A stretch of 49,170 nucleotides of DNA from Candidatus Eisenbacteria bacterium (GTDB lineage Bacteria; Eisenbacteria; RBG-16-71-46; SZUA-252). The stretch lies in assembly GCA_005893305.1 (NCBI GenBank), contig VBOZ01000016.1:14453-63622 (forward strand). Reading direction: 5' to 3'. The notes beneath the pieces were generated by a model. The model was not told the origin of the DNA, did no database searches, and worked only from the letters and a program-made list of their open reading frames with translations. A program made the translations under genes and the position numbers. Below are positions 11,182-35,898 of the stretch, one piece after another (position 1 is the first letter of the stretch; the number at the start of each line of letters is the position of its first letter).

Positions 11182-13118
11182 GCGACACCCGCGGCGGTGA
11201 CGGCGGGATGCAGCTCCAACACCCCGTCCAACGGGGAATGCAGCTCTTCCCTGGGCCGATCGACGTAGGTGCGGGCCCACAGCTCGAGGCAGGTCAGTGC
11301 GAATATCTGATGCGCTTGCCGGCCCGGTTGCCACGAGTCCCGGTCGAGCATCGCGGCCACCCCCTTGGGATTCAGCCAACCGCGTCGCGCACAACGTCCG
11401 TCCAGCAGCGTCTGGCGGGCAAGGGTTCGGAGTCCGTGATCCATCCATCGGTGGAGAGGGATTCCGAAGCCACGCTTCCCTCGACGGAGGATCGCATCCG
11501 GCAGGAGCTGCTTCGTGCTCTCGCGGAGTATCCATTTCGTTACTCCCTGGCGCACTTTCATGGAGAACGGAAGCCGAGCGGAGAACTCGACGATGCGCTG
11601 GTCCAGCAAGGGAGTGCGTACTTCCAGCGTGTTGAGCATCGACATCCGATCGACCTTGGTCAGGACGTCGTCCGGAAGGTAGGTCTTCGCGTCATAGTCG
11701 AGCAGCGCGGCGAATGCCTCGCCGTTCCGCCCGGCTTGCGGGCTGGGCGTCTCAGCGAGCAATCCAAGTGGGCCGGAAGTCGCCGTCGCGGCCATGTCGG
11801 GCGTCAACAAGCTCCCGATATCTTCGGGACGGAACAGCGACATGTTCGCCAGATGGCGTTCGAGGATACCTCGATCCAGCTGGCGCAGCCGCCCCAGAGC
11901 GCCTTGCCCGAGAGGAAGCGCCCTCGCCGCGGAGGCGACTTGTCTCCGCAACGCCAAGGGCACCCAATCGCCCGATGCGTGCCGCAGCGCCTTCCGGTAC
12001 GTGTCGTATCCGCCGAACATCTCATCGCCGCCGTCCCCCGAGAGAACGACCGTCACCTGCTCGCGCGCCAGGCGCGCCACGTGGTAGCTCGGCAGGATGG
12101 ACGGATCGAAAAACGGCTCGTCGAGCCCCCACACGAGACGAGGCAGCAAGGACAAGGAGCTGGGCCCGATAAAGTACTCGCGATGCTCGGTGTGAAGATG
12201 GTCCGCCATGAGCCTCGCGTGCGCGATGTCCCCCTCCGTCTCTCCTTCCACGCCGATGCTGAACGTCGGAATGGATGGGCCGCACTGCGCGGCCACCACG
12301 GCGGCAACGCAGCTCGAATCGATTCCACCGGAGAGGAAGACGCCGATCGGCACATCCGCGACGAGGCGCGTCCGTACGGCGTCGTCGATCAGGCCCCGGA
12401 GCTCGTCCGCGGCATCGTCGTCCGATCGGGGCTCCATCCTCTCGGTTGGGGCCGCCCAGTATTGCTCGGTGCGCGGACCCGACGAGTCACAGAGGAGGCG
12501 TTGTCCCGGAAGGAGCTTCTGCACGCCCTTCCAGATCGTCCGAGGAGACGCGATGTAGCCGAACGTGAGTGCCTCGACGACCGCGCTCTCCTCGACGTTG
12601 CGAGGGACGGCCGGGTCGAGGAGTAGCGCTTTCAGCTCCGACGCGAAGACAATCCGATGCCCGTCGTCGTACCAGTAGAGCGGCTTCTTCCCCATCCGAT
12701 CCCGCGCGAGGAGCAACACCCGGGTCCTGGTGTCGAAGACGGCCAACGCGAACATTCCCGTCAATTCTTGAAGCGCGGCCATGCCCACCTCTTCCCAGAG
12801 ATGGACCAGCACTTCGCTGTCGCTGGCGCCGCGGAAGGTGTGGCCGCGATGCCGCAGGCGATCGCGGATCGCCCCGCTGCCGTAGAACTCTCCGTTCACG
12901 ACGACGACGACCGTCCCATCCTCGTTCTGGATGGGCTGTCTTCCGCCTTCGGTTGTATCGATGATTGGAAGTCGCTGATGCCCCAGCCTGGCGCGCTCCC
13001 CTCTCCAGACGCCGGGTGTTTCGGGACCGCGATGACGGAGCGCGTGAAGCTGACTTTCGAGGACGTCGAGCGCGGCGGGACCATCGGCATACGCGAACGA
13101 CCCTGCGAAACCGCACAT
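11178..13118 (-). CDS. asnB: Asparagine synthase (glutamine-hydrolysing)
   Basis: This 646-residue enzyme has an N-terminal class II glutaminase domain with the nucleophile Cys2 (MCGFAG), RHRGPE at 29-34, VNGEFYG at 74-80 and SDSE at 99-102. It also has a C-terminal AMP-forming synthetase domain with the PP-loop SGGIDS at 263-268. Length fits the AsnB group. The usual RHRGPD reads RHRGPE. The ATG at 13118 has GGAGGGG about 7 nt upstream. It leads an operon with an exported protein and a GT2-deacetylase fusion. In such contexts AsnB paralogs often amidate sugar acids or peptides in surface polymers, so a housekeeping Asn role is not certain. Confidence 0.92.
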   Translation of the reverse strand: MCGFAGSFAYADGPAALDVLESQLHALRHRGPETPGVWRGERARLGHQRLPIIDTTEGGRQPIQNEDGTVVVVVNGEFYGSGAIRDRLRHRGHTFRGASDSEVLVHLWEEVGMAALQELTGMFALAVFDTRTRVLLLARDRMGKKPLYWYDDGHRIVFASELKALLLDPAVPRNVEESAVVEALTFGYIASPRTIWKGVQKLLPGQRLLCDSSGPRTEQYWAAPTERMEPRSDDDAADELRGLIDDAVRTRLVADVPIGVFLSGGIDSSCVAAVVAAQCGPSIPTFSIGVEGETEGDIAHARLMADHLHTEHREYFIGPSSLSLLPRLVWGLDEPFFDPSILPSYHVARLAREQVTVVLSGDGGDEMFGGYDTYRKALRHASGDWVPLALRRQVASAARALPLGQGALGRLRQLDRGILERHLANMSLFRPEDIGSLLTPDMAATATSGPLGLLAETPSPQAGRNGEAFAALLDYDAKTYLPDDVLTKVDRMSMLNTLEVRTPLLDQRIVEFSARLPFSMKVRQGVTKWILRESTKQLLPDAILRRGKRGFGIPLHRWMDHGLRTLARQTLLDGRCARRGWLNPKGVAAMLDRDSWQPGRQAHQIFALTCLELWARTYVDRPREELHSPLDGVLELHPAVTAAGVA

Positions 13119-31455: not shown

Positions 31456-33035
31456 TGCCGGCTCCTCAAGATCTCGAGGGCCGCGAGCCTTCCCGATGCG
31501 CCCATGATCCCCCCGCCGGGGTGGGTTCCCGCCCCGCATTGCCAGTAGCCGTGGATCGGGGTGCGGTACTTCGCCCACTCCGGGACCGGCCGGAGGAAGA
31601 AGAGCTGCTGGAGCGCCAGCTCGCCCTGGAAGATGTTCCCCTCGGAGAGGCCCGTGATGCGCTCGATGTCGGCGGGCGTCAGCACCTGGCGGTGGAGGAT
31701 CAATGATTTGATGTTCGGGGCGTAGCGCTCCAGGGTGTTGACCACCGCGTCCCCGAACGCCTCGCGCTTCGCGTCGGTCCATCCGCCGTTCAGGGCGTAG
31801 GGCGCGTACTGGACGAAGATGCTCATGACGTGCTTCCCCGGCGGCGCCATGCCGGGATCGATCATCGACGGGATCACGATGTCCATGTACGGATTCCGCG
31901 AGAATTCCCCGTACTTGGCGTCGTCGTAAGCGCGCTCCAGGTATTCAATGCTGGGACTGATGGAGACCGCGCCGCGAAGGTGCGGACCCTTCCCAGGAAG
32001 GCAAGTGAAGTCGGGGAGGCCGGACAGGGCGAGGTTCACCTTCCCCGAGGAGCCGCGGAACTTGTAGCGGCGCACTCCTTCGAGGAGCTCAGCCGGAAGC
32101 GACCCCGGCTCGACGAGGCGCGTGAACGTGAGGCGGGGATCGAGCCCCGATACGACGAGGTCCGCGGCGATCTCTTCCCCGCTCGCGAGCGCGACGCCTG
32201 TCGCGCGCCCGTTCCGGACGATCACGCGCTCGACGGCCGCGTCGGTGCGGATTTCGGCGCCGGCCGCGCGCGCCGCGCCGGCGATCGCGTTGCTGATCCC
32301 TCCCGTGCCCCCCTTCTGGAAGCCCCATGCGCGGAACGCTCCGTCGATCTCGCCCATGTAGTGATGAAGCAGCACGTAGGCCGAACCGGGCGAGCGCGGC
32401 CCCAGGAATGTCCCGATGATGCCGCTGGCCGATTTCGTCGCCTTGAGCGGCCCGAACTCGAACCACTCGTCGAGATAGTCCGCGCTGCTCATCGTCATGA
32501 GCTTGTGGAGCGCGTGGAAGCGCTCGGCCCCGAGCGAGCGGAAATGCCCGCCCAGCTTGAGGAGCCCGCGCAGATCCGACGGCGCGAGCGACGCCGGGTC
32601 CGGCGGGACCATGCCGATGATCGGCTTCACCGCCATGGCCATGTGGTGCATGAGCCGTCCGAAGACCGACGCGGCATCCGCGTCGCGCGGGGAGTGGCGC
32701 TCGAGCTCTCGCCGCGTCTCGTCCGGGTCCGACCACGACCCAAGATAGTCCCCATTGTCCATCGGGGTGATCGTGCTCTCGAGCGGCAGGATCTGGAGCC
32801 CGTGCCGCGGAAGGTCGAGGTCCCGGATGATCTCGGGGCGCAGGAGGCTGACCACGTACGAAAAGACCGAGAACTTGAATCCGGGGAAAACCTCCTCGGT
32901 CACGGCGGCGCCGCCGATGAGCGGCCGCCTCTCGAGCACGAGGGTCTTCTTGCCCGCGCGCGCGAGATAGGCGGCCGCGACCAATCCGTTGTGCCCGCCC
33001 CCGATGAGGACGGCGTCGTATCGCGGGGCGCTCAT
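31452..33035 (-). CDS. FAD-dependent oxidoreductase, PYROXD2/phytoene-desaturase-like (copy 2)
   Basis: This 527-residue protein has the N-terminal motif 'GGGHNGLVAAAYLARAGKK' and 'VLERRPLIGGAA', then 'GAGTHPGGGIMGASGR' at the end. 'GGGHNGLVAAAYL' is especially close to the PYROXD2 branch. The start overlaps the stop of the GcvT-like gene (ATGA). Two paralogous flavoproteins in one operon could form a heterodimer or act on successive intermediates. A larger ORF from 34265 joins shadow sequence of the GcvT-like gene and is not real. Sequence alone does not give the substrate. Confidence 0.9.
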   Translation of the reverse strand: MSAPRYDAVLIGGGHNGLVAAAYLARAGKKTLVLERRPLIGGAAVTEEVFPGFKFSVFSYVVSLLRPEIIRDLDLPRHGLQILPLESTITPMDNGDYLGSWSDPDETRRELERHSPRDADAASVFGRLMHHMAMAVKPIIGMVPPDPASLAPSDLRGLLKLGGHFRSLGAERFHALHKLMTMSSADYLDEWFEFGPLKATKSASGIIGTFLGPRSPGSAYVLLHHYMGEIDGAFRAWGFQKGGTGGISNAIAGAARAAGAEIRTDAAVERVIVRNGRATGVALASGEEIAADLVVSGLDPRLTFTRLVEPGSLPAELLEGVRRYKFRGSSGKVNLALSGLPDFTCLPGKGPHLRGAVSISPSIEYLERAYDDAKYGEFSRNPYMDIVIPSMIDPGMAPPGKHVMSIFVQYAPYALNGGWTDAKREAFGDAVVNTLERYAPNIKSLILHRQVLTPADIERITGLSEGNIFQGELALQQLFFLRPVPEWAKYRTPIHGYWQCGAGTHPGGGIMGASGRLAALEILRSRQ

Positions 33036-34219
33036 GCCTTCTTGCGCTCGGGATCGTAGAATGGGAGCTTGCGCACGACGGCGTTGGCCGTCTTCCTCTG
33101 GTGCTCGACCGTGATCTCGAGCTGGACGCCGGTGCCGGCCTCGAAGTGGGGCGACTTCAGGTGTGCCAGGGCCAGCGATTTCTTGAGGAGCGGCGACCAC
33201 GACCCGCTCGTCGCGTAGCCCACCTGAACGCCGTCCCGGTAGACCGGGGCGCTGGTCCGCCAGGCGATGTTCGAGAGATGAGGCGGGAGGTGATGCGCGC
33301 GGAAGAGGCGCTCGAACGAATCCCAATCCAGCTCGAGGCCCACGAACCCCCAGGCCGCGCCCCGGGCGCGCTCGGCCGCGAGCGCCCGCCGGCCGTTGAA
33401 CGGCCCCTTCGCCGCGCTCACCGCCCAACCGAGGTTGATCTCGTAGGGCGACGACTTCCGCGCCTCGATCAGCGCGTGCTGCGCCGAGAAGTAGTCGACG
33501 TCGAGCATGATGAGCCCCGCCTCGATCCGCGCGATGTCGAGCGCCCAGACGCCGGTGGGCGTGATCCCGAAGGGCGTGCCGGCCCGGACGAGGGCGTCCC
33601 ATAGCTCCTCGGCCCGCGCCGCCTCCGCCCAGATCTCGTACCCCAGATCGCCGGTGTACCCGGTGCGGGAGACGGTCACCGGGACGCCGCCCACCGTGGT
33701 CTCGACGACGCGGAAATACTTGAGCTTCGTGAAATCGGCCGGAGAGACCTGCTGGAGGATCGCGCGGGATGACGGACCCTGGAGCGCGAGCGTCCCGACC
33801 CGCTCGGACACGTCCTCGATCTGAACGTTCATCCCGACCGCGTTCATGTGGAGCCAGCGAAGCGAGGAATCCGCGCTGGTCAGACGGTAGGTGGAGTCGG
33901 CCAGCCGGCTCACGGTCCCATCGTCGATCACCTTCCCCGCCGCGTCGCACCACGGCGTGTAGTAGACCTGCCCCACCGAGCACTTCGCCATGTCGCGGGT
34001 GATCATCCGGTCGAGGAGCCGGGCCGAATCCGGGCCGGTCAGCATGTACTTGTGGAGGGGCGAGACGTCGATCAGCGCGGCCGCGTTCCGGATCGCCGCG
34101 TACTCTCGGTCCGGATGCGGATCGTAGGCGCTCGCCATCTGATAACCCGCCCAACGACGCCACGTCTGGGCGCGCACCAGGGGCGCCGTGCGCGAATGAA
34201 ATGGGCTGATTTTCAACAT
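33032..34219 (-). CDS. GcvT-like aminomethyltransferase (folate-binding)
   Basis: This 395-residue protein has the GcvT/YgfZ fold. Its 'AAALIDVSPLHKYMLTGPDS', the folate-site acidic pair 'KVIDDGTVSRL' (D99-D100), 'LALQGPSSR' and 'SRTGYTGDLGYEIW' all match tetrahydrofolate-dependent aminomethyltransferases and demethylases. No gcvH, gcvP or lipoyl genes are nearby, so a role in the glycine cleavage system is unlikely. With two flavoproteins and a Rieske oxygenase downstream, it probably takes a one-carbon unit from an N- or O-methyl compound. It leads the operon; the start ATG is at 34219 with only a weak ribosome site. Confidence 0.9.
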   Translation of the reverse strand: MLKISPFHSRTAPLVRAQTWRRWAGYQMASAYDPHPDREYAAIRNAAALIDVSPLHKYMLTGPDSARLLDRMITRDMAKCSVGQVYYTPWCDAAGKVIDDGTVSRLADSTYRLTSADSSLRWLHMNAVGMNVQIEDVSERVGTLALQGPSSRAILQQVSPADFTKLKYFRVVETTVGGVPVTVSRTGYTGDLGYEIWAEAARAEELWDALVRAGTPFGITPTGVWALDIARIEAGLIMLDVDYFSAQHALIEARKSSPYEINLGWAVSAAKGPFNGRRALAAERARGAAWGFVGLELDWDSFERLFRAHHLPPHLSNIAWRTSAPVYRDGVQVGYATSGSWSPLLKKSLALAHLKSPHFEAGTGVQLEITVEHQRKTANAVVRKLPFYDPERKKA

Positions 34220-34295: not shown

Positions 34296-34538
34296 TTACT
34301 CTCTCAAATGATTCCGCACGACCTCGACAACCCGCCGCCCCGAAGGAAGGATTCCCATGGTCGAGAGCAGGCCTGCCTGGATCACGGTTCGGCCATCGAC
34401 GAGGATCTTGTACTCGCCGTAGTGTCCTCGGATCATGTCGACCTCGATTCCAAGCTCACGGCGGATCTTCGCCGCCACACGGGCGGCGTGGAACCGCGAG
34501 ATTCAATAGGCGCAGAATCGGATGGATACTCTGACCAT
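34296..34538 (-). CDS. SelW/Rdx-like selenoprotein with in-frame UGA (predicted Sec12)
   Basis: Reading through one TGA (34503-34505), the minus-strand ORF gives 80 residues from an ATG with AAGGTGAGGG about 8 nt upstream. It starts MVRVSIRFCAYU, a CxxU redox motif at residues 9-12 directly after the first strand, as in SelW/Rdx proteins. Helix 'SRFHAARVAAKIRREL', strand 'GIEVDMIRGHYGEYKILVDGR' and a final helix follow the Rdx order, and 'GEYKILVDG' matches the family's G-F-E-V-x-V-D-G. A SECIS-like hairpin lies downstream of the TGA. A shorter start at the GTG at 34478 would lose the redox site and has no ribosome site. No selA/B/C/D is in the window, so Sec insertion is inferred. Confidence 0.75.
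34455..34500 (-). promoter_or_regulatory. Bacterial SECIS-like hairpin inside the selenoprotein gene
   Basis: Immediately after the TGA, the minus-strand RNA can form a lower stem of 7 pairs (CUCGCGG at 34500-34494 with CCGUGAG at 34461-34455, one G-U). It also forms a perfect upper stem GCCGCC/GGCGGC (34487-34471) with apical loop CGUGU. The loop's GU lies 22 nt after the UGA. Bacterial SECIS elements have this position and a GU in the apical loop. Confidence 0.65.
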
Positions 34539-34585
34539 GCTCAGTCCCTCACCTTGCGGAAACAATACCACCTGGCCGCCGCGCT

Positions 34586-35308
34586 CTAGAGAAGCCCGAG
34601 CCACCCCGCCCAGATGTCCGACCAAGCGTGCGCGATCATCACGGGCCGGAGGCTCCGGCGCCAGAGCGCGAGCGAGCCATACAGAATGCCGAAGAGAGCG
34701 ATCTTGGCAGTCGCGGCGACCCCCTGATAACCGTGCGAGACCCCGAAGAGCAGGGCTTGCAGCAAGAGCCCGATCACGTTGCTCCGGGTGAGGGCCGCGA
34801 ACTGCCTCTGTAGATAGCCGCGAAAGACCAGCTCCTCGCAGAATCCCGCGCTGATCGAGAGCGCGATCCAGAGCGTTATTTCCACAATGCCCTTGGGCAA
34901 GAGATTCTCGATCGACTTCGCATGGTCGGGGCTCAGCCATCGATCCCAACTGACCTGGATCCCGACCCACGCGAGCCATGCTCCGAGCGCCAGGGCGCCA
35001 TCGCGCACGACGTCCAGTGGGCGGCTCCACCGCCCGCCGATCAGATCCCTGAGTCTCGCCGCGTCGCCTCCGAGGGCGCCGCGCCAGACGAAGAGGACGA
35101 GTCCCCACTCGAGGACGAGAAGCGACAGATAGAGCGGCACCACGCCGGCGTGTGCGGGAGGTGCCGCGGTCTCCCGTCCCCGACCCTGAAATACCGCGCC
35201 GCCGACCGTCAGGAGAAGAAACAGTGCGACCAGCACCGCGGTGTGTCGGTACGGAGCCACCGGTTGTGGATGGGTGTATACGCGTTGGGGAGTTGCAGAG
35301 TCGGTCAC
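34586..35308 (-). CDS. CPBP family intramembrane protease
   Basis: The 240-residue membrane protein has the CPBP/Abi metalloprotease motifs: EELVFRG with E158/E159 and R163, 'GVSHG' with H192 and 'IAHAWSD' with H227/D231. It has about six helices. Family members cleave prenylated peptides, bacteriocin leaders or anti-sigma factors. The GTG start overlaps the padR stop (GTGA), so PadR and the protease form one operon, with the selenoprotein gene 47 nt downstream on the same strand. Target unknown. Confidence 0.9.
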   Translation of the reverse strand: MTDSATPQRVYTHPQPVAPYRHTAVLVALFLLLTVGGAVFQGRGRETAAPPAHAGVVPLYLSLLVLEWGLVLFVWRGALGGDAARLRDLIGGRWSRPLDVVRDGALALGAWLAWVGIQVSWDRWLSPDHAKSIENLLPKGIVEITLWIALSISAGFCEELVFRGYLQRQFAALTRSNVIGLLLQALLFGVSHGYQGVAATAKIALFGILYGSLALWRRSLRPVMIAHAWSDIWAGWLGLL

Positions 35309-35898
35309 GATGCCCTCTTAGGTTGGGGACGGCGGGGCTTGGCCCCGGGGAGACGAGCACCCATTCGCCGGATTGCCTCGTCGCACCAGAGCACGTGCGC
35401 CTCGAGCGAGAGAAGGCCCTTCCGAAGGGTGAGCTGAAGGTGAAGCTCGGAGGTCGGGAGATCGTCGGGATAGCGCGGATCGGCTTCCGCCCATCGGCGA
35501 TCGAGCATGCGCAGGGCGTCCAGCTTCGTGGCGAAATGGTCCCGCATGCGTCCGAAGAATCGGATCGTCTGCCGCAAGTCCTTCAGCTCGTCCATGAAGT
35601 AGACCTGGGCCAGATACGCGAATCGCTCGTCGCCGAATTGGGGCTCGCCGCGAAGCCATTCGCGCAGCGCCCGCCGGCCGGCTGGGGTAGTCACGTAGAC
35701 GCGGCGACCGGAGCCGCGCTTGGAGGCGGCGGCACGGCTCCGCACCCACCCGCGCTTCTCGAGCCGCTTCAGGGTCGGGTAGATCTGGCTCAGCTCGGCC
35801 GCCCAGAAGTAGCCGATCCCCTCGTCGAAGAACTTCTTCAGGTCGTAGCCGGAGGCGGGCCGGCGCAGGAGACCCAGGAGGATGAATTCGAGGCTCAT
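35305..35898 (-). CDS. PadR family transcriptional regulator
   Basis: The 197-residue regulator begins 'SLEFILLGLLRRPASGYDLKKFFDE', the PadR winged-helix start. The wing carries 'GRRVYVTTPAGRRALREWL'. A C-terminal helical dimerisation domain follows (about 95-180, 'TIRFFGRMRDHF'). PadR proteins repress until a small ligand binds. The promoter region just upstream holds an AT-rich inverted repeat inside the spacer, consistent with autorepression. It is the first gene of an operon with a CPBP protease. Confidence 0.93.
   Translation of the reverse strand: MSLEFILLGLLRRPASGYDLKKFFDEGIGYFWAAELSQIYPTLKRLEKRGWVRSRAAASKRGSGRRVYVTTPAGRRALREWLRGEPQFGDERFAYLAQVYFMDELKDLRQTIRFFGRMRDHFATKLDALRMLDRRWAEADPRYPDDLPTSELHLQLTLRKGLLSLEAHVLWCDEAIRRMGARLPGAKPRRPQPKRAS

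Follow-up and report, generated by a model that had tools for sequence, protein, structure and literature searches.

SelW2, a divergent SelW-like selenoprotein subfamily predicted from an in-frame TGA in a Candidatus Eisenbacteria genome

A short reading frame on a contig of a Candidatus Eisenbacteria bacterium is open except for one TGA, located at the end of a CxxU motif. Is this codon decoded as selenocysteine (Sec), and to which kind of selenoprotein would the gene then belong? The window, i.e., the whole stretch of 49,170 nucleotides that was analysed, had received a first-pass annotation that proposed a SelW/Rdx-like selenoprotein with a SECIS hairpin at this place. Judged on comparative sequence evidence, the gene very probably encodes a small SelW/Rdx (thioredoxin-like) selenoprotein of a divergent paralogous subfamily, here given the working name SelW2, with the UGA decoded as Sec via the SECIS. 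The locus presents the following features:

34296..34538, minus strand: SelW-like selenoprotein gene, working name SelW2; ATG at 34538 to TAA at 34296, 80 residues, predicted Sec at residue 12
34503..34505, minus strand: in-frame TGA, putative Sec codon of the CxxU motif C9-A-Y-U12; TGA at this position in 19 of 19 subfamily members
34470..34488, minus strand: predicted bacterial SECIS apical stem-loop; 7-bp stem, loop CGUGU at 34481-34477, 21 nt after the UGA
34539..34556, minus strand: ribosome-binding region 5' of the SelW2 ATG, AAGGTGAGGGACTGAGC; a clear GGAGG is present at the equivalent place in several orthologues
34586..35308, minus strand: 5' neighbour, Rce1-like (CPBP) membrane protease gene in another frame (PF02517, 70.1 bits)
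33032..34219, minus strand: 3' neighbour, aminomethyltransferase (GcvT) family gene (PF01571, 223.9 bits)

Coordinates, length, the FCAYU motif and the CGUGU loop of the first-pass annotation were correct on re-reading of the window; it gave no strand, and the gene is encoded on the minus one. The frame extends from the ATG (34538-34536) to the TAA (34298-34296), has the TGA at 34505-34503 (residue 12 of 80) as its single interruption and reads MVRVSIRFCAYUISRFHAARVAAKIRRELGIEVDMIRGHYGEYKILVDGRTVIQAGLLSTMGILPSGRRVVEVVRNHLRE. The ribosome site claimed before the ATG is present as a modest purine-rich stretch (AAGGTGAGG). The Rce1-like gene ends 47 nt before the ATG. The SelW2 frame remains open 5' of the ATG for more than 270 codons (window 34503-35360, minus strand), and a gene finder could call a spurious ORF of 285 aa that ends at the Sec codon and overlaps the Rce1-like gene in another frame. 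A fusion of SelW2 with this upstream ORF (GTG at 35360) was rejected because of the overlap; the frame 5' of the orthologue in genome G040 meets a stop in fewer than 15 codons. Elsewhere in the window, ARAGORN reported a 93-nt tRNA-Gly(GCC) at 12243-12335 (minus strand) within an ORF of 646 codons; this call may be a false positive. Each genome examined has other genes beside SelW2: G040 has PEPCK and an alpha/beta hydrolase, G015 a prolyl-oligopeptidase-type peptidase and an HTH protein, G002 an acetyltransferase and a methyltransferase, and G219 an M20 peptidase. No neighbour recurred among these four and the window, thus gene neighbourhood was rejected as a pointer to function or partner. 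SelW2 appears to be a stand-alone gene, and the Rce1-like and GcvT genes are not part of its system.

Ninety-nine related genomes were searched for relatives; 18 contained homologues, each match with one in-frame TGA, and most of these were canonical SelW (SelW1). The group resembling the window gene was found in G040, G015, G028, G003 and G002, all of the same class, and in G219, which is related to the window organism at the domain level only. A scan of named genomes revealed eight more SelW2 loci, all in MAGs, labelled as Acidobacteria gp6 AA38, Gemmatimonas sp., Thermoanaerobaculia, Candidatus Solibacter, Acidobacteria SZAS-9 (two loci), Bryobacterales and Terriglobia. Four further loci (L099, L101, L102, L103) came from a search in 396 genomes of the SZAS-9 phylum, resulting in 18 homologues beyond the window gene. 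The subfamily thus ranges over the class of the window organism, a second phylum and MAGs named as Acidobacteria and Gemmatimonas; most relatives are MAGs. Fifteen aligned members have 39-60% protein identity to the window protein. A contig scan with the window protein alone as query gave no match, an alignment of closer members as query was successful; no relative was found by the scan among viral contigs. The two SZAS-9 loci are L093 (JAFDVU010000007.1) and L096 (JAFDVU010000053.1), the latter leaving the family pattern after about residue 62 in a frameshift-like manner. A sub-branch of L084 (G003), L085 (G002) and L103 (G603), with a tree support of 99/95, is marked by one additional residue following the Sec (CPVULVK...) and by the motif [FL]WYP[NR] close to the C-terminus.

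The assignment to the SelW/Rdx family in the first-pass annotation was upheld by profile comparison and predicted structure. The window protein matched only two families, both below the cut-off: Pfam Rdx (PF10262) with 18.1 bits (cut-off 22.6) and NCBIfam SelTWH_Campy (NF041051) with 30.3 bits (equivalog cut-off 88). Within the alignment of 15 members, Rdx matched 13 (best 7e-7) and SelTWH all; a profile-profile comparison of SelW2 and SelW1 yielded a probability of 98.6% over 71 columns. An AlphaFold model built from the single sequence was of low quality and led the fold search astray to KH domains, and a model from nine sequences was used instead (pLDDT 88.2, pTM 0.76). This model predicts the thioredoxin-like beta-alpha-beta-beta-beta-alpha order of Rdx proteins and places C9-A-Y-U12 just after the first strand (residues 4-8). 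Its 23 best PDB matches were all SelW/Rdx proteins with TM about 0.8, up to 0.83, including 2fa8, 2ojl, 3dex, 2obk, 2oka, 2p0g, MIEN1 and mouse SelW. Residue 12 aligned with the second Cys of the CxxC Rdx proteins, the redox Cys in related Rdx structures.

The window gene agrees with SelW1 in length, CxxU motif, fold and SECIS layout, as would be expected if it were the ordinary SelW of its genome and no separate paralogous subfamily existed. This reading is very unlikely. The canonical SelW is encoded on another contig (C35, 36403-36615, plus strand); the protein starts with MKVEIRYCEMUDYKPRAASLAAELK..., and its gene has an in-frame TGA of its own in a CEMU motif and its own SECIS-like hairpin. 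It scored 101.8 bits against NF041051, versus 30.3 bits for the window protein, hence SelW2 is regarded as a paralogous subfamily and not as the NF041051 equivalog. In a maximum-likelihood tree, the 18 SelW2 proteins included grouped as a single clade (97/87), distinct from SelW1 and from the CxxC Rdx proteins. Several genomes have both a SelW1 and a SelW2 gene. The family given in the first-pass annotation therefore stands, with the refinement that the gene is a divergent paralogue and the canonical SelW lies elsewhere. The sister of the SelW2 clade is L104 (G654:C691:23428-23652), a CxxU protein with a mixture of SelW1-like and SelW2-like motifs which may be an evolutionary link. L104 and the CxxU protein L098 (G391:C2) have SelW1-like residues after the Sec (DYKPRAARVAE, NYLPEASRVAAE), while their helices (ARVA/SRVA) and loops are SelW2-like.

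The proposed SECIS consists of a CGCCGCC/GGCGGCG stem (34488-34482 with 34476-34470) and the loop CGTGT (34481-34477); folding z was -3.1 for the surrounding 57 nt and -3.3 for the hairpin alone. With its 7-bp stem, its CGUGU loop and its distance of 21 nt, it agrees with the published bacterial rule, which asks for a G as the first or second loop base with G or U next to it, at 16-37 nt from the UGA (PMC13188914). Hairpins are common in the GC-rich DNA of the window, and this one is by itself weak evidence: among 9,400 control codon positions of window ORFs, 4.9% were followed by a 7-bp stem that fits the SECIS requirements for loop and distance, and a 28-nt segment as stable as that of SelW2 was seen at 1.5% of the positions sampled. 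The structure might accordingly be a by-product of GC-rich codons for an Ala-Ala-Arg-Val-Ala-Ala helix, with read-through depending on another signal or on none. The comparison across genes makes this very improbable. Third codon positions are frozen under the hairpin only: pairwise identity at 4-fold degenerate sites is 80% in codons 18-23, but 39% over the remaining codons (15 genes). The codon of Arg20 is CGT or CGG in 15 of 15 genes; a third base C or A would break the G-[U/G] rule of the loop. Of the 91 CGN codons at other positions of these genes, 48 are CGC or CGA. The invariant Arg26 is encoded by five different codons. In the 19 sequences, 96.2% of the stem cells were paired and three pairs were changed on both sides; one of 500 shuffles reached three double-sided changes and none of 500 the covariation score, figures which are uncorrected for shared ancestry and serve as support only. 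In G003 both Ala codons were silently changed (GCC to GCG, GCG to GCC), flipping a C-G pair to G-C, and in L103 stem and loop (AGUCU) were kept although Ala-Ser-Leu-Ala replaces Ala-Arg-Val-Ala (AASLAA). The SelW1 genes of the same genomes mostly have an equivalent hairpin, whose five-base loop [A/G]G[U/G][U/C]U lies 21 nt from the UGA and whose stem has one mismatch in some cases. Conserved and covarying across 19 genes, the SelW2 hairpin is selected as RNA, and the joint conservation of TGA and hairpin is far above chance.

The Sec codon position was TGA in all 19 genes and Cys in none. Cys forms were equally detectable, since the searches either translated across stops or relied on segments at a distance from this codon. 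The homologues with Cys at residue 12 which the first-pass annotation had suggested looking for were thus not found among these 19 genes; the sole Cys protein met, from G144, clusters with the CxxC Rdx protein 2oka outside SelW2 (100/98 in the tree). The 15 aligned members share invariant residues on both sides of the TGA, and the continuity of the Rdx pattern across this codon, claimed from the window alone, recurs in homologues that read on through it. A lone in-frame stop in an otherwise open gene of a draft assembly could be a sequencing error or mark a pseudogene, i.e., a former CxxC Rdx gene with a nonsense mutation. We consider this highly improbable, as relatives from several phyla all have TGA, never TAA, TAG or a Cys codon, and the conservation of protein and hairpin continues on either side.

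Decoding as Sec requires the corresponding machinery, and all four components named for a check in the first-pass annotation were found in the genome of the window (2.75 Mb, 96% complete), each exceeding the curated cut-off of its family: tRNA-Sec (68.6 bits, anticodon TCA, contig C8:164268-164175, minus strand, L002), the directly adjoining selD, SelB (357 bits) and SelA (568 bits). SelB was also present in the genomes of the tested SelW2 members, except in the incomplete assemblies G002 (78% complete) and G040 (87% complete). One SelB could plausibly serve the hairpins of both SelW1 and SelW2. A genome-wide reassignment of UGA without selenium, e.g., to Trp or Gly, would likewise have UGA read as a residue, but can practically be dismissed: the G219 and G015 orthologues terminate at their own TGA, tRNA-Sec (TCA) and the full Sec machinery are present, and the position is that of the redox Cys in related Rdx structures. 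Taken together, the constant TGA, the SECIS and the Sec machinery support computationally the initial proposal that the TGA specifies selenocysteine. Neither of the two observations named in the first-pass annotation as refuting it was made: the sel genes are not lacking, and the homologues do not stop at this TGA without conservation before it.

In other SelW/Rdx proteins, the Cys and the Sec or Cys of the CxxU/CxxC motif make up a thiol/selenol pair where strand 1 ends. For SelW2, SelB carrying Sec-tRNA(UCA) would bind the hairpin loop and thereby insert Sec at the UGA. Cys9 and Sec12, between the end of strand 1 and helix 1, would then be a thiol/selenol redox pair which may reversibly form a selenenylsulphide. 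The protein might reduce disulphides or peroxides, or shuttle electrons to them, and be reduced itself by a cellular thiol or thioredoxin. By analogy, a small selenol-based thiol oxidoreductase is the most likely function predicted. Whether SelW2 is in addition a separate subfamily restricted to Sec, having a redox partner or substrate distinct from those of canonical SelW and spread over several phyla partly by horizontal transfer and largely unannotated, we regard as evenly balanced.

Since the window protein scores too low for the cut-offs of both Pfam Rdx and NCBIfam SelTWH, routine annotation would probably miss SelW2 or call it as a truncated fragment. With this subfamily, one of the commonest families of bacterial selenoproteins gains a distinct branch in which Sec is constant, in lineages for which metagenome assemblies are the main source, and the SelW2 alignment offers a direct route to an annotation model. 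With a SelW1/SelW2 pair in one genome, the roles of duplicate SelW proteins and the missing Cys form become testable questions.

Bacterial SelW-like CxxU selenoproteins are an established and catalogued family (PMC13188914, PMC1794560, PMC2398784), represented by the models Pfam PF10262 Rdx and NCBIfam NF041051 SelTWH_Campy and TIGR02174. That SelW-like proteins have few or no Cys homologues in Sec-using bacteria was noted before (PMC1794560); a description of the SelW2 subfamily was not found in the open-licence literature. SelW1 and SelW2 have in common the length, the CxxU after strand 1, the thioredoxin-like fold, the predominance of the Sec form and a SECIS within the codons of helix 1, with the loop about 21 nt from the UGA. 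In comparison with the bSECIS consensus element (PMC13188914), the SelW2 stem varies unusually little from phylum to phylum (CCGYC/GGCGG). SelW2 lacks the signature of SelW1, which consists of Y-L/K-P-R-A after the U and FSKK..GRFP near the C-terminus, and has its own motif C-x-[YF/V]-U...AxRVAA.lR...GxyGe..VlVDG and, in the core group, a C-terminal [GL]vLPS; the window protein stays below the cut-offs of the models and falls into a separate clade. The CxxC Rdx proteins of solved structure (2fa8, 2ojl, 2oka, 2obk, 3dex, 2p0g) resemble SelW2 in predicted fold (TM about 0.8) and motif position, but have Cys in place of Sec and 15-26% identity. Mammalian SelW (2npb) and Rdx12/MIEN1 (2ljk) are alike in fold and CxxU/CxxC motif, but are eukaryotic proteins; the eukaryotic SECIS sits in the 3' UTR. 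SelW2 is best called a second, divergent subfamily within the known SelW selenoprotein kind.
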